Assembly (NCBI GenBank): GCA_016932715.1
Contig: JAFGCG010000035.1
Span: forward strand, 1 to 52,663
Source of the DNA: Anaerolineales bacterium
Lineage (GTDB): Bacteria; Chloroflexota; Anaerolineae; Anaerolineales; Villigracilaceae
Reading direction: 5' to 3'
Length of the DNA: 52,663 bases
The notes beneath the pieces are model-generated. The model did not search any database. It was not told the DNA's origin and saw nothing but the letters and a program-made list of their open reading frames with translations. Numbering within the stretch: the stretch's first letter is position 1; every line of letters starts with the position of its first letter. Both the position numbers and the translations under genes were made by a program. Shown piece by piece: positions 25,024-31,079 of this stretch.

Positions 25024-25638
25024 TTAAGGCAGTTCCCATAGATCTACAAGCCGTTCAGAAATAGAATAGAAATGCTCTCGGGATCTGCCCATTGCATAGA
25101 GACGGATCGCGCCTGCAATCATGTCCGCCATCTGCAAACCATCCTCATTCCTGGAGTTTGCTCCAATGATATTCTTAAAGGGGCGAATGCGCTGTTCCTG
25201 TTTACAGCGTTCAGTGAATGATACGCGCAAATGTCGGCAGAATGCTGGCGTTCCCCCATCTATGACCAGAATTTCATTAGAGATATCCAGTTCACTGGCG
25301 CGGAATGTCAATCCGATCAGCAACTCAGTCGTCAATTCTTGAGGTGACAGGGTCCGCCAACTGAGATCAATTTGCCTCTTGTTCAATACCACGGCCCGCG
25401 TGCGAAAGTGAACTGCCATCACATCCCTGAAGAAGCAATCTTTTTGGTCCTCCGTGGTTTTGTGATATTTGAACTCAAAAGCCGATGGCAGCTGTAGTGT
25501 TTTTCGCAAATTCACTAGTGGCTGGAGGGGTACACGATTAGGTAGCTGCACCATAGTGATTACAAAGTAGCTCGAAGAGCTTGCCTGCCCACCCAACCCG
25601 GCATCGCCAGATTCATCAACGAAGAAATATTGTGTCAT
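25024..25638 (-). CDS. DUF3800 domain protein
   Basis: A 204-residue protein beginning MTQYFFVDESGDAGLGG and ending with GLQMADMIAGAIRLYAMG, the two signature blocks of DUF3800. The family has an RNase H-like fold with acidic residues and is common in mobile islands and near defence genes; its activity is not firmly established. GGGAG precedes the start. It follows the integrase by 33 bases on the same strand and was probably acquired with it. Confidence 0.88.
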   Translation of the reverse strand: MTQYFFVDESGDAGLGGQASSSSYFVITMVQLPNRVPLQPLVNLRKTLQLPSAFEFKYHKTTEDQKDCFFRDVMAVHFRTRAVVLNKRQIDLSWRTLSPQELTTELLIGLTFRASELDISNEILVIDGGTPAFCRHLRVSFTERCKQEQRIRPFKNIIGANSRNEDGLQMADMIAGAIRLYAMGRSREHFYSISERLVDLWELP

Positions 25639-25671
25639 GGGTTTCTCCCTGGTTTTCAGCCGTTAGGGCGC

Positions 25672-26670
25672 CTAAAGCCGCCAGTTATCAGCCGGGCTGG
25701 CTTTGCGATGAGCCTGTTCGACATCGACTTCCGCGATCCGGGCATAATGCTCCACCATTTCCAGACTGCCATGCCCCAGCAGCGATTTCAACGTGAAAAT
25801 ATCGCCGCCAGAACGCAGATAAGCGATGGCAAACGTGTGCCTGAAACGGTGAGGATGGCATTTCTTCACCCCGACTTTCGCCCCCAGCGAGTTGATCAAC
25901 TGGCGCAGCGCGTCACGGTTGAAGGGCCTGTGGAACTTACCAAGGAAAAGCGGCGCATCCGGATCGTCACCGTCCTCGCGTTCTGCCAGGTAGCGCCAGA
26001 GAAACCTGCGGGCAGATTTTCCCATAAAGACAATCCGCCCCTTACCTCCTTTCGCTTTCCCGGCTTCGCCAGGCCTGACTTGGACCCTGCCTGATTTCAG
26101 ATCTACATCTGCTATCCGCAACGCACACAGCTCACCAGCTCTCAACCCGGTGTCCAACAGTGCAAGGAGGATGGCTTTATCCCGTTTGCCCGTAGATCGC
26201 TGCATAGTGAACTTACAGCGCCTGTCAGTGTTGGCTTCTTCACAAAAGTTACAGGCTTTGATCAACAATTCGATTTCTTCTTTCTTGAAAGGCTCAACCG
26301 GCGGGTCTTCCGGCACGCCCGGGCGTGGGATATCCTTCATCGGATTCGACAAATTGAATTCGCGGGTTGCCCAGGTGAAAAACGAAGCTACACTTACATA
26401 GAGGTTATAGACGGTTTTGGGAGCAAGTTTGCGCGAATTCCCCCCGGTGATCCGGCGCGGCACATAGTCGGTCCGCAGGTAGTTCAGGAAAGATAATATG
26501 CGCTGCGATCCAATCTCATAGATGTCCATATCCCCCTGATACTCGATCCAGAGCTTCAGGTCTCGCTCGTAGCCGGAGACGGTGACCGGCGCGAGTCCTT
26601 CGGCACTTTTATATTGCAAAAACCCGCTAACCGCTTTACTGACATTCAAGCCTTGAGGTCGTTGGTTCAT
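25672..26670 (-). CDS. Tyrosine recombinase / integrase
   Basis: A 332-residue XerC/D-type integrase. The N-terminal SAM-like core-binding domain covers residues ~10-110. The catalytic domain shows LLDTGLRAGELCALRI (first arginine), HPHRFRHTFA (HxxR), LLGHGSLEMVEHYARI (histidine and the nucleophilic tyrosine). AAGGAG precedes ATG 26670; an open frame to 26733 has no site. It starts 91 bases from an initiator tRNA gene on the same strand, the usual position for an element integrated at a tRNA 3' end. Confidence 0.92.
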   Translation of the reverse strand: MNQRPQGLNVSKAVSGFLQYKSAEGLAPVTVSGYERDLKLWIEYQGDMDIYEIGSQRILSFLNYLRTDYVPRRITGGNSRKLAPKTVYNLYVSVASFFTWATREFNLSNPMKDIPRPGVPEDPPVEPFKKEEIELLIKACNFCEEANTDRRCKFTMQRSTGKRDKAILLALLDTGLRAGELCALRIADVDLKSGRVQVRPGEAGKAKGGKGRIVFMGKSARRFLWRYLAEREDGDDPDAPLFLGKFHRPFNRDALRQLINSLGAKVGVKKCHPHRFRHTFAIAYLRSGGDIFTLKSLLGHGSLEMVEHYARIAEVDVEQAHRKASPADNWRL

Positions 26671-26700
26671 TGAAAATCTCCTTTTTGGGGAGGCTCTCTG

Positions 26701-26752
26701 AATCAAAGACCGCCGGGCTAGCCTGATTGACATAGCCTGGCGGTCTTTGATT
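26701..26752. repeat. Large inverted repeat between tRNA-fMet and integrase
   Basis: A perfect 14-bp stem (26701-26714 with 26739-26752) continues with five more pairs after one mismatch (26716-26720 with 26733-26737). It may terminate the tRNA transcript, regulate the integrase or serve as an arm-type recombinase site. Its position 10 bases from the tRNA 3' end favours a link with integration. Confidence 0.7.
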
Positions 26753-27090: not shown

Positions 27091-27747
27091 ATGAAAAAAG
27101 CCACGCTCTTGCTAATCGAAGGACGACATGCAGAAATCCCTTCTTTTGCATCTGATTTGCAGAAGAAGGGATTTGATGTTGTTTCCGCTCAAAATGGAAG
27201 TGAGGCTGTTTCCAGGTTGAAGCAGACCAACCCAAGCCTGGTCATTGTCAATGCTCCATCCCTGCGCAGTACCGGCATACGCATTTGCCTTTCACTCCGC
27301 AAAAAAGATTCGAAGATCCCGATCATATTAATTGTGGAGAAAGAAAAATCCATTGACAAGGATCTGGTCGATTCCATTCTGGTGCTGCCTTTCACCGTAC
27401 AAAAGCTGGTCAACCGCACCAAAGCGCTCATGCCGGGGGATGGCAATAACATCCTCAGTGTAGGGCCCATCCGCCTGGATATCGAGAATCGCCGCGTGCG
27501 TGCCCTGGGCAAGAATGCAAAGCTTACACCCAGATTGATCACATTGCTGAAAATCTTAATGGATAAGCACGGCGAGGTCGTGGAACGGGAAGCTTTGTTT
27601 AAAAAGGCCTGGGAGACAAACTACACGGGCGACACCCGCACGCTGGATGTTCACATTTCCTGGCTGCGGCGCGCCATCGAGCTCGACCCGGATAACCCCA
27701 AATTCCTCAAAACCATTCGCGGCGTCGGCTATCGCTTAGATGTTTAG
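27091..27747 (+). CDS. OmpR/PhoB-type response regulator with degenerate receiver
   Basis: A 218-residue protein: an N-terminal receiver-like domain (1-120) and a C-terminal winged helix (about 125-215: LTPRLITLLKILMDKHGEVV through TLDVHISWLRRAI, ending FLKTIRGVGYRLDV). In the receiver the phospho-acceptor aspartate is asparagine (VIVNAPS, N54), the acidic pair near the start is reduced to one Glu, and the conserved Lys before ProPhe is Leu (VLPF). It probably does not respond to phosphorylation. No histidine kinase is adjacent. Function is likely as a phosphorylation-independent DNA-binding protein. Confidence 0.9.
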   Translation: MKKATLLLIEGRHAEIPSFASDLQKKGFDVVSAQNGSEAVSRLKQTNPSLVIVNAPSLRSTGIRICLSLRKKDSKIPIILIVEKEKSIDKDLVDSILVLPFTVQKLVNRTKALMPGDGNNILSVGPIRLDIENRRVRALGKNAKLTPRLITLLKILMDKHGEVVEREALFKKAWETNYTGDTRTLDVHISWLRRAIELDPDNPKFLKTIRGVGYRLDV

Positions 27748-27862: not shown

Positions 27863-28417
27863 CTACCTACGCCGCTTAAGCCCTTTTAGAACCAAAAAAG
27901 CTTGATCTAGTGTTCCACCGCATGGGATAAGCCATTCAGGCGGAGAAGCTGGATTTACTGTTATCCACGAGGTATCCTGCCCGCTCATTCCGGTATGCTG
28001 CCCTAGATGTCCAATCACATATTTCTGAAGTAAATTCTTGCTTATGACCCAACAATGTGCTTCAAATGGTGAAATACCTAGACAAACGGCATACTCATAA
28101 TTCTGATCTCTAATTTGTTGAAACTTATAAATCCCAGACTTCCACAAAGTAGAGAATTTCACTTCTATCCGGTGACCGTTAACAAGCATATCAGCCTGGC
28201 TATCAGGGCTTCTGTCAACTGACAGTCCTTTAACAGCACACCATTGATATATTAAGTGTTTCCCTAGTTTTCCTTTAGATCCTGCAGGCAATCGTAATAC
28301 CCATTCAAAAGGACTATTCCGCCAAGACAAATAATCTTTTTCCAGATCTTGCCTTATATAGGTGGCTGAAGAAGATAAAAGATTAAAATCAGCAGTAGTG
28401 TCAGCATGTTGTTTCAT
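27863..28417 (-). CDS. Putative type II restriction endonuclease, PD-(D/E)xK fold
   Basis: A 184-residue protein (or 191 from TTG 28438). The segment ADMLVNGHRIEVKFSTLW supplies D76, E85 and K87, spaced as in D-X8-ExK nucleases. Almost the whole protein aligns with residues 299-467 of the adjacent methyltransferase at about 60% identity over the central 110 residues (my estimate by eye), but only this copy keeps both acids. It follows the methyltransferase by 30 bases on the same strand, so it is most likely the endonuclease of the pair. The gene is visibly AT-rich compared with flanks, as restriction genes often are. Confidence 0.8.
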   Translation of the reverse strand: MKQHADTTADFNLLSSSATYIRQDLEKDYLSWRNSPFEWVLRLPAGSKGKLGKHLIYQWCAVKGLSVDRSPDSQADMLVNGHRIEVKFSTLWKSGIYKFQQIRDQNYEYAVCLGISPFEAHCWVISKNLLQKYVIGHLGQHTGMSGQDTSWITVNPASPPEWLIPCGGTLDQAFLVLKGLKRRR

Positions 28418-28447
28418 AGCTATGTCCAAAACAGTCAATATTGATGA

Positions 28448-29851
28448 TTATCGAAGTGTTCTCTTCAAGACAACTGTAGCATCAATCAATGAACCACCAT
28501 AATCTCGCAGCCAATCCTCGGGCTTATCAGGATTTATAGTCAGCCAGTATTCCGACCCTTTAGCACCTTTGTGCTGAACTGTAGCGTACGTAAGTATAGT
28601 TTTTCGGTCAACAATCCAACAATGTGCATCATTGGGCGATATTCCTAAACAGATAAGATAATCATAACCGACACTTCTTATTTGTTGAAATTTATATATC
28701 CCTCCAGACCAAAGTGTTGAAAACTTAGTCGCAACCCGATGGCCATTTACAACAAGGTTTGCGTCTTTATTGCCTATACGATCAACGGACAATCCATTGC
28801 TAACACACCACGTAGCAATCAAATGCCGACCTAATTTTCCCTTTGCGGCTGGAGCTAAACCTAAGACCCAGAATAACGGACTATTCTCCCAGCCCTCTAC
28901 GTCAGAAACCAGATCACTTTGAATATAGGTAGCCGCGGATGCAAGCAAATGAAAATCTGGGGTATCTTGAGGCTGAACAACTGTTTTTTTCTTGCCCTGA
29001 AACGGTAAAGGATCAAAGTTCTCCCATTTGACATTAGAAATGCCAGAAAATCTTTTCGCCATTGTTTCTAGTGCTTCGAAATTGTTGTCTATGAGAATAA
29101 AATTTCTGCCTAATTTCAAGCAACTCTCACCCACCGTTCCACTTCCCGCAAAAAAATCAAGAACACTGTCACCTGGATTAGACGATGCCTGAACCATTCT
29201 GTTAATAATTCCAACTGGTTTTTGGGTAGGATAACCAGTCCTCTCCCTACTATTTGTACCTACAATAGTATGCCACCAGGTGTCGGTTGGCAGTTTTCCT
29301 CTTTCAGCTTTTTCTGGTCCAACCAATCCTGGAGCCATATATGGCTCTCTGTCAATTGCAAATGCGTTAAACACATAATTTGACGGATTTTTTACATAAA
29401 GAAAGATGTTATCGTGCTTAGTCGGCCATTTAGATTTGGACTTCGCACCATAGTCATAGGCCCAAACGATCTCATTCAGGAAACATTCTCGCCCAAAAAT
29501 CTTATCAAGTACAATCTTACAGTAATGGGATTCTCGATAATCGATATGGAAATACAAGCTGCCATGTGGGGCTAGAACTCTATAAGCCTCTTGTAACCTG
29601 GGGAAAAGAAAACTATCAATGTAACCATCCCCATACGAATCTGAGTATTCTTTTGTCCCGACTAGGATCGACTGATATTTATTTCCCTGAAAACCAGCTC
29701 TATCCCCATTTTTAGATCTGACTGTCTTTATCTTTGCCATTTTTTGGTTCTTGCCGGTATTAAATGGCGGATCTATATATATTAAATCTATAGATTCTGT
29801 AGCAATACTTCTTAGAACCTCAAGATTGTCTCCAAAGATAATCCTATTCAT
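28448..29851 (-). CDS. DNA adenine/cytosine-N4 methyltransferase fused to an inactive nuclease-like domain
   Basis: A 467-residue protein. Residues 1-290 are an amino-methyltransferase of the class with motif IV first: IDLIYIDPPFNTGK (DPPF at 27-30) and later VLDFFAGSGTVGESC (motif I, near 232-245). Residues 299-467 are homologous to the separate endonuclease at 27863-28417. In this fused copy the two catalytic acids are replaced (N365 for Asp, A374 for Glu) and only K376 remains, so it should bind but not cut DNA. It probably provides target recognition shared with the nuclease. AT-rich; first gene of the pair. Confidence 0.88.
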   Translation of the reverse strand: MNRIIFGDNLEVLRSIATESIDLIYIDPPFNTGKNQKMAKIKTVRSKNGDRAGFQGNKYQSILVGTKEYSDSYGDGYIDSFLFPRLQEAYRVLAPHGSLYFHIDYRESHYCKIVLDKIFGRECFLNEIVWAYDYGAKSKSKWPTKHDNIFLYVKNPSNYVFNAFAIDREPYMAPGLVGPEKAERGKLPTDTWWHTIVGTNSRERTGYPTQKPVGIINRMVQASSNPGDSVLDFFAGSGTVGESCLKLGRNFILIDNNFEALETMAKRFSGISNVKWENFDPLPFQGKKKTVVQPQDTPDFHLLASAATYIQSDLVSDVEGWENSPLFWVLGLAPAAKGKLGRHLIATWCVSNGLSVDRIGNKDANLVVNGHRVATKFSTLWSGGIYKFQQIRSVGYDYLICLGISPNDAHCWIVDRKTILTYATVQHKGAKGSEYWLTINPDKPEDWLRDYGGSLIDATVVLKRTLR

Positions 29852-29961: not shown

Positions 29962-31011
29962 CTAGTAATGAATCTGCACCAGCGTGCCATAACCACGGTT
30001 GGTCGCCTTGCCAATTTCATGTTTTGGGAGCGCCCAGCGGAACAGCCATTTGGCATCCTCGTTGCGCATGTTGATACAGCCGTGGCTCATTGGCGCGCCA
30101 AAGTTTTCGTGCCAGTAGGTGCCGTGGAAGGCGTGCCCCTCAGTCGTGAAAAAAAGCGTCCACGGGACACCAGGGAGCTCGTAATCCTCCGCTTCTGCAA
30201 AGAGATTTCCATTGCCCATGTGTTTGGCGGGATCCTTTTCAAGAATGCGGAAGTCGCCCTGCGGCGTTTTTGTATCGCCATTCGGGATTCCCGAAGAAAA
30301 GGTCGTTTTGAGGACCTGCTTGTCATACTCGTAAGCGATCAAGGTCTGCGTTGCCAAATTGACATCGATGCGCTTCTTTTCCAGGGAAACCTCAGGGGTA
30401 ATGGGGGCAAGTTCTTCCAGCGGGATGGGCCGCACGTGCAGCGGGTTGACGTAGTAGTAGGGTGGACCGGTCAAGTCGTCATAGATGTGATACCACGGCT
30501 CGCCGGTGGGGCCTGCTTCGATCGCCTGCGCCAAATGCACGGATCCATAATATAGGCGGAAACCAAGCTTTTGCCAGCCGTAAGCCTTGCTTGTTTTCCA
30601 CGGCTCGGTAAAGGGAACGGTCACTTCGACCGGGCGCCGCAGGCCTTCGTCAAGGCCCAGCGAAGATAATGTCTCGTTATACAGAATCTTTACTCTCTGC
30701 AAACGCGCCCGGTGAACATACCCGCCCCAGACACGATACCAGACCGGGTTATGAGCAGGTTCATCAACAGTGACTTCGTCATACACACGCAGTAACTCAT
30801 CCCGATACCATGTCGAGATGATGGAGCTTTTATCCGACGGCCTGCTATAAACGCTGACCGAATTTGTCGCTACACGCACAAGGAGGCTGTCATCAAAACC
30901 AGTGAAGTTTTGCAGGGCTGAAGAAAATGCCAGGGTTCCGAGGCTCAAGCCGCCAAGCTTCAGGAACTCGCGCCGGGACAAGCGAAGCCGTCCTGTGGAT
31001 AAGGTGGACAT
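29962..31011 (-). CDS. Tat-exported L,D-transpeptidase (YkuD domain)
   Basis: A 349-residue protein. A twin-arginine signal (SRREFLKLGGLSLG) is at residues 12-25. A middle region with short strands (VRVATNSVSVYSRP, WYRVWGGYVHR) resembles SH3-like cell-wall binding domains. The C-terminal YkuD domain contains HAFHGTYWHENFG and the active-site motif MSHGCINMR with the catalytic cysteine. It should form 3-3 peptidoglycan cross-links or attach proteins outside the cell. ATG 31011 places the Tat motif normally; an upstream ATG at 31059 would add 16 residues. Confidence 0.9.
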   Translation of the reverse strand: MSTLSTGRLRLSRREFLKLGGLSLGTLAFSSALQNFTGFDDSLLVRVATNSVSVYSRPSDKSSIISTWYRDELLRVYDEVTVDEPAHNPVWYRVWGGYVHRARLQRVKILYNETLSSLGLDEGLRRPVEVTVPFTEPWKTSKAYGWQKLGFRLYYGSVHLAQAIEAGPTGEPWYHIYDDLTGPPYYYVNPLHVRPIPLEELAPITPEVSLEKKRIDVNLATQTLIAYEYDKQVLKTTFSSGIPNGDTKTPQGDFRILEKDPAKHMGNGNLFAEAEDYELPGVPWTLFFTTEGHAFHGTYWHENFGAPMSHGCINMRNEDAKWLFRWALPKHEIGKATNRGYGTLVQIHY

Positions 31012-31079
31012 AGTTCGAAAATTGTAATCGAAAACGACTGCTTTTTGCCGCGGTCTCATTAATCTCTAATTAACTCACC

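Follow-up and report, generated by a model that had tools for sequence, protein, structure and literature searches.

In positions 1–52,663 of contig JAFGCG010000035.1 from an Anaerolineales bacterium (assembly GCA_016932715.1), the whole of which we refer to as the window, we found a restriction-modification system whose methyltransferase ends in a copy of its own partner nuclease from which the active-site acids are missing. The methyltransferase and the separate, intact nuclease belong to catalogued families and are encoded by adjacent open reading frames (ORFs) on one strand, as in a Type II restriction-modification system. The component families are already known, and the arrangement is a variant of this type. 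A single fusion, the loss of the acids, the retention of the catalytic lysine and of most invariant residues, and persistence across genomes can all be read from the sequences. We consider here what the disarmed copy may do for the methyltransferase.

A methyltransferase ending in a copy of its partner nuclease

An initial annotation, made from the letters of the window, had described a methyltransferase fused to an inactive copy of the neighbouring nuclease; the ORFs, strand, coordinates and residues that it gave are all correct (Table 1). By BLASTP, residues 297–463 of the methyltransferase match residues 15–185 of the separate nuclease with 89 of 171 positions identical (52%, E=2e-61). The alignment is gapless through the core, as had been claimed, with four gap positions near the end. 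It also bears out the reported replacement of the D-X8-ExK residues of the nuclease: N365, A374 and K376 of the fused copy stand opposite D83, E92 and K94 of the separate protein (numbered in its 191-aa reading; D76, E85 and K87 in the 184-aa reading). The PADLOC model PDLC03515 (REase_II) recognizes both the separate nuclease (E=2.4e-59) and residues 293–456 of the methyltransferase (E=1.4e-41), while PDLC03300 (MTase_II) covers methyltransferase residues 2–281 (E=1.3e-133). Pfam and NCBIfam gave no convincing match to the separate nuclease. The methyltransferase is matched by Pfam N6_N4_Mtase (E=9.4e-45), and this match, together with the position of DPPF (motif IV) ahead of the S-adenosylmethionine (SAM) motif FAGSGT, assigns it to the beta class.

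The AlphaFold2 model of the separate nuclease has a mean predicted local distance difference test score (pLDDT) of 87.5 and a predicted TM-score (pTM) of 0.78, from 30 aligned sequences. Its top Foldseek match is I-Ssp6803I (E=3.8e-4, TM-score 0.49 by query), followed by NhoI, with Hjc, PvuII and EcoRV lower; all of these are PD-(D/E)XK enzymes, I-Ssp6803I being a homing endonuclease. The model thus matches the PD-(D/E)XK fold, if modestly, with only four matches at E≤0.001. For the whole methyltransferase, modelled from 21 sequences, mean pLDDT is 79.3 and pTM 0.54, and the best Foldseek matches are M.RsrI and CcrM. In the tail of this model, helices and strands follow one another as they do in the nuclease model; the fold of the fused copy is assigned from this order and from the sequence match. 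The target-recognition region is poorly predicted, pLDDT falling below 50 at residues 169–177, 185–191 and 193–209.

Members of the nuclease family were sought with PDLC03515. Matches came from 6 of 101 relatives and, at wider taxonomic scope, from 13 of 400 genomes (order), 15 of 396 (class) and 16 of 400 (phylum); these samples overlap one another, and all 14 control genomes lacked a match. A scan of GTDB contigs yielded 18 loci: nine fused, one with two methyltransferases (L018) and eight others (L021–L028), among them L027, which begins at a contig end so that the nuclease alone is visible. A scan of viral contigs yielded four loci, none fused, and a second viral scan with the methyltransferase as query gave no fusion in the 80 loci kept of 104. 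Relatives with a single methyltransferase occur in Chloroflexota, Planctomycetota, Actinomycetota and viral contigs. After removal of repeats there were 11 distinct fused loci (the window, L011–L017, L019, L020 and L069), nearly all of them either labelled Chloroflexota or related to the genome of the window. As these come from separate assemblies, an assembly artefact is ruled out.

The domain alignment, and the nuclease tree built from it, comprise 46 rows, 35 separate nucleases and the 11 fused copies. Repeats of one genome were left out, as were L029 (a near-duplicate of L031), L032 (with a short nuclease frame) and 11 distant nuclease matches with no methyltransferase found nearby. At position 83 an aspartate is present in 35/35 separate nucleases and in none of the fused copies, which carry T (five), N (two) or, once each, F, S, M and K. 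At position 92 the separate nucleases have E (33) or Q (two), the fused copies A (nine) or S (two). Thus neither acid is kept in any of the 11 fusions. The lysine at position 94 is present in 46/46 rows. A third residue, Q112, is found in 35/35 separate nucleases and 0/11 fused copies. The separate nucleases therefore carry the D...(E/D/Q)-x-K residues of the superfamily, whereas the fused copies lack its acids. The two nucleases in which Q replaces the catalytic E (D...QxK) are those of L023 and L024, which are Arthrobacter-type.

Beyond the active site most invariant residues of the nuclease have been retained. Thirteen columns are invariant in 34 of the 35 separate nucleases (the divergent L028 being excluded); the fused copies lose D83 and Q112, and the remaining 11 columns, including the polar S96, Q107, Q108 and R110, are kept by at least 9 of the 11. 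Q147 and H148 are kept in all 11 fused copies. DPPF and FAGSGT are intact in 11/11 fused methyltransferases, and a nuclease with an intact site lies downstream in each of the ten fused loci whose contig continues. A fused copy with an intact active site was looked for and not found among the 11 fused loci or the 80 viral loci kept. The proposal that a nuclease gene was duplicated, fused to the methyltransferase gene and deprived of its catalytic acids could have been contradicted by a different fold of the nuclease or by homologous fusions that keep the acids; both were looked for, neither was obtained, and the proposal is supported.

One candidate for an intact-site fusion (L057/L070, a single match in a 531-aa frame) was rejected: the nuclease there is separate, and its frame, read from stop to stop, merely overlaps the methyltransferase, which lies in a different reading frame. 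A 4-kb contig of the viral collection (L243:3363-3851) encodes a methyltransferase without a fusion and, after it, a separate nuclease-like protein with an active site that also looks broken; the contig stops after this protein, and a further nuclease could lie beyond. The 11 distant family members set aside above (L050–L053, L060–L066) keep E/D-x-K and have FxFNHxR in place of FQQIR. No methyltransferase of the present type was found within about 1.5 kb of them, and some also match the REase_II model PDLC03498. Among plasmid records the nuclease query gave zero matches and the methyltransferase query nine at 32–37% identity, none with 80% coverage. Among phage records the nuclease query gave 13 cyanophage matches at 31–35% identity; in the two of these records examined, no methyltransferase annotation lies within 4 kb of the match.

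Table 1. Positions of the restriction-modification genes, their domains and key codons, and conserved neighbours in the window, and of the loci with two methyltransferases
Feature	Position	Strand	Evidence or remark
Fused methyltransferase, 467 aa	28448-29851	-	ORF; nuclease gene next, same strand
Methyltransferase domain, residues 1-281, beta-class N6/N4; DPPF (27-30), DFFAGSGT (232-239)	29009..29851	-	Pfam, PADLOC, Foldseek
Linker, about residues 282-296	28964..29008	-	Gap between end of PDLC03300 match and start of nuclease-like match
Fused nuclease-like domain, residues 297-467 and stop, active-site acids missing	28448..28963	-	BLASTP, PDLC03515, helix/strand order
N365 codon, replaces first catalytic Asp	28757..28759	-	
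A374 codon, replaces catalytic Glu	28730..28732	-	
K376 codon, catalytic Lys kept	28724..28726	-	
Separate nuclease, 191 aa from TTG at 28438; 184 aa from ATG at 28417	27863..28438	-	
D83 codon, separate nuclease	28190..28192	-	
E92 codon, separate nuclease	28163..28165	-	
K94 codon, separate nuclease	28157..28159	-	
Q112 codon, separate nuclease; third residue lost in fused copies	28103..28105	-	
Winged-helix response-regulator gene, conserved neighbour	27091..27747	+	Pfam Trans_reg_C, E=1.5e-24
YkuD L,D-transpeptidase gene, conserved neighbour on other side	29962..31059	-	Pfam YkuD, E=2.5e-23
Two-methyltransferase loci, M1 and M2, then nuclease	L018:3345-4972; L067:1220-2838; L068:1866-3515		

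Ancestry, sister lineage and chromosomal slot

All 11 fused copies fall into one clade of the nuclease tree (support 100/99), which implies one fusion, long maintained. They join the separate nucleases of the fused loci and of loci with two methyltransferases, in a group whose stem measures 0.63 changes per column (100/100). The nucleases of L023 and L024 also fall inside this group, on a branch of 1.8, and are probably misplaced because their own methyltransferases lie elsewhere in the methyltransferase tree. In the latter, the methyltransferases of the fused loci form a single clade (97/89), sister to the first methyltransferase (M1) of the two-methyltransferase loci (95/91); the stem of the corresponding group is short, at 0.08. 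The L019 nuclease groups with that of the two-methyltransferase locus L068 (99/95), while the L019 methyltransferase is of the fused kind; this suggests an exchange of partners.

Two side observations concern the proteins of this clade. Position 60 of the nuclease alignment, an acid in a helix, is E in 18 of 22 nucleases from single-methyltransferase loci, but the nucleases of fused loci (9 of 10) and of two-methyltransferase loci (2 of 3) mostly have K there; the switch may reflect an altered active site or altered DNA binding that arose along the clade's stem. Eight of the 11 fused methyltransferases (L013–L017, L019, L020 and L069) have an insert around a TDTWW stretch of the target-recognition region that resembles tandem copies of that stretch, up to four in L015. 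Their methyltransferase part is 318–344 aa long, against 289–290 in the other three fused proteins.

The sister lineage, known from three loci, encodes a second methyltransferase (M2) in addition to M1 and the nuclease. In 3/3 loci M1 has DPPF, the SAM motif and a GYPTQKP stretch intact. The Y-x-x-P-x-L stretch of the target-recognition region, present in 21/21 single and 11/11 fused methyltransferases, occurs in none of the three M1 proteins. In M2 the state of these motifs is reversed: DPPF (replaced by IKPP or similar), an intact SAM motif and GYPTQKP are each found in 0/3, and Y-x-x-P-x-L in 3/3. From its motifs, M2 looks enzymatically dead, yet it has the recognition stretch that M1 lost. 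The two proteins appear to have lost complementary parts of the target-recognition region, as though the two shared out the work of a dimer. If M2 is dead as the fused nuclease copy is, each lineage has one of its two enzymes in a second, disarmed version as well.

The system occupies a conserved chromosomal position. The winged-helix response-regulator gene adjoins it in 10 of the 11 fused loci (the regulator of L019 being 44% identical), and the YkuD gene lies on the other side in nine; L069 has neither gene within its contig, and the L019 contig stops just past the nuclease. The system points toward the regulator in three loci (the window, L011 and L012) and along the direction of the regulator in seven, a split that matches the two main branches of fused methyltransferases. 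One fused locus, L013 (DYSN01000153.1), is labelled Draconibacterium orientale (Bacteroidota), yet its neighbourhood is of the Anaerolineales type, with a regulator 76% and a YkuD protein 51% identical to those of the window, and the label is probably misassigned. In the window, a DUF3800 gene and a tyrosine-recombinase gene at 25024-26733, about 1 kb or more past the regulator gene, possibly constitute a small mobile element.

Regulator loci of 17 relatives from the same family were examined. In 14 of them (L072, L073 and L076–L087) a different beta-class methyltransferase, about 420 aa long and 36–42% identical to that of the window, sits between regulator and YkuD; two others have the fused system there, and in the last a contig end interrupts the slot. 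Seven genomes with the fused system gave no close copy of the resident enzyme, their best matches being 35–44% identical, with the exception of one 93-residue stretch at 55% within a 655-aa frame in G242. Among five comparison genomes without the fused system, it is present at 73–79% identity in two and as a partial copy at 69% in one, and there is none in the other two, G004 and G010. It seems, then, that the fused system replaced the resident methyltransferase, or vice versa. The slot is possibly a methyltransferase–regulator pair like CcrM and CtrA.

Possible roles of the fused domain

The reading that we favour, at a probability of about one half, is that the dead copy is the DNA-binding C-terminal tail of a beta-class methyltransferase dimer, which would hold DNA as the nuclease does, without cutting it. 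What we infer in this reading is that the dead domain binds DNA, that it has this place in the dimer and that it shares its specificity with the nuclease. As for its history, a PD-(D/E)XK nuclease gene was copied and the copy fused, once, to the 3' end of the methyltransferase gene; the fused copy lost its cutting residues, and the original nuclease gene remained adjacent. As in CcrM, the catalytic domain of one subunit would act on the target strand and the C-terminal domain of the other would hold the DNA, and in this way the dead domain could help the methyltransferase engage the sites that the nuclease would cut. The order of the domains is compatible with such a dimer. We favour a DNA-gripping tail because the metal-binding acids were lost while the lysine and polar residues such as Q108, R110, Q147 and H148 were kept. 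Restriction enzymes mutated in their catalytic acids are often still able to bind the recognition site.

Several observations weigh against a recognition tail. The methyltransferase retains a target-recognition region of its own, and 21 methyltransferases from single-methyltransferase loci have no nuclease-like domain; the tail is therefore an addition and not a requirement of the family. The relative placement of the methyltransferase and tail domains is uncertain in the model, as its pTM shows. Losses extend beyond the active site: across the 76 columns that the 13 nearest nucleases conserve, retention in the fused copies averages 0.67, and 15 of these columns, including a deleted loop (141–144) and T156, are kept in at most 20% of the fused copies. 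For this comparison, too, L028 was excluded from the 22 single-locus nucleases. The fused copies also diverge faster than the nucleases, with a mean p-distance of 0.512 against 0.352 and the larger value in 44 of 45 pairs. Dead copies and nucleases of the same locus are no closer than mismatched ones (0.425 and 0.423, permutation p=0.37; the matched pair is the best in 1 of 10), and this comparison revealed neither ongoing co-adaptation of the two nor gene conversion. Finally, a search for avoided palindromes compared stretches of 0.29–0.40 Mb of six genomes, four having the system and two lacking it; no palindrome was specifically depleted in the four, and the best differences were slight.

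Some of the same facts bear on other roles. PD-(D/E)XK restriction enzymes are usually dimeric, and the dead copy could instead be a docking or control module for the nuclease, which it might draw into mixed dimers, tether, block or delay in double-strand cutting, or convert to nicking. Such a role would suit the live nuclease gene that lies directly downstream in 10/10 assessable fused loci, the preserved fold and most invariant residues, and a stable chromosomal locus, where a tamed nuclease would be useful. We nevertheless judge it the less likely account, although a possible one: partners of the same locus resemble each other no more than mismatched ones do, the dead copy diverges faster, which does not point to a tight shared interface, and partners seem to have been exchanged in L019. 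A domain that merely promotes dimerization or solubility, with no part in DNA binding or nuclease control, would be compatible with that faster divergence and with the absence of a loop common in near nucleases. Against it stands the retention of polar residues resembling DNA contacts (10 or 11 of 11 copies) and of the catalytic lysine (all 11), and we regard it as quite unlikely.

That the copy is a decaying passenger, a functionless relic tolerated at the C-terminus, was already disfavoured and seems very improbable, even though the catalytic site is gone and divergence is raised. The frame is open and the fold residues are conserved in 11/11 loci, while about half of the residues differ between loci. 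Nonsynonymous divergence (dN) of the fused copies is 0.19–0.45; synonymous divergence (dS) exceeds 2 where it can be computed (3/8 pairs) and is otherwise saturated, so that the dN/dS of these three pairs, about 0.10–0.15, is a rough value that also speaks against a relic. There is only a slight chance that some other explanation applies.

A broader scenario we offer as speculation and think rather unlikely as a whole. The nuclease of this clade may have changed its reading of DNA, and the methyltransferase may have been re-matched to it by the graft of a disarmed copy of that nuclease, or in the sister lineage by a disarmed second methyltransferase. The re-matched system would then have taken over, or kept, the slot of the resident methyltransferase beside the response regulator, where methylation may be regulatory. 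Bearing on this idea are the long nuclease stem (0.63), the short methyltransferase stem (0.08) and the branching of the dead copies inside the changed nucleases.

Comparison with known systems

Restriction enzymes are usually described as recognizing the same sequence as their methyltransferases by unrelated means, and how a new specificity could arise simultaneously in both enzymes is an old puzzle. A methyltransferase equipped with a cleavage-dead copy of its own nuclease would be a natural design for keeping the two specificities matched, and the sister lineage with a live and an apparently dead methyltransferase offers an independent comparison. In a 2014 review, nucleases and their companion methyltransferases are said to be dissimilar in all systems of this kind (PMC4081073). 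Searches of the open-licence literature with narrow combinations of terms found no account of a dead cognate nuclease fused to its methyltransferase, which is weak evidence of novelty.

The nearest parallel for the methyltransferase is CcrM. In the dimer of that enzyme, the non-target strand is bound by the C-terminal domain that the second subunit contributes (PMC6787082). CcrM has, as here, a beta-class catalytic domain, a short linker and a C-terminal domain; however, the C-terminal domain of CcrM is SAND-like, has 88 residues and binds DNA non-specifically, whereas the present one has a nuclease fold copied from the partner (PMC6787082). BbvCI, a heterodimeric Type IIT enzyme, has two related nuclease chains and would be comparable should the dead copy form a pair with the live nuclease; unlike in the present proteins, both of its chains have catalytic sites and neither lies within a methyltransferase (PMC4081073).

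Ordinary Type II systems recognized by PDLC03515 and PDLC03300 have the same nuclease and methyltransferase families, but the methyltransferases of these relatives end near residue 290, without a nuclease domain. Type IIC/IIG enzymes such as the TspGWI family do, as here, combine a nuclease fold and a methyltransferase in a single chain. In those enzymes the fused nuclease cuts, whereas here a separate nuclease is kept and the fused copies lack both acids in 11/11 cases, which rules out assignment of the fusion to this type. Pairs of a live and a dead methyltransferase are known from the METTL3–METTL14 type. The sister lineage resembles that type in having a live and a putatively dead beta-class methyltransferase side by side; it differs in being prokaryotic and in having DNA as the putative substrate, beside a restriction nuclease.

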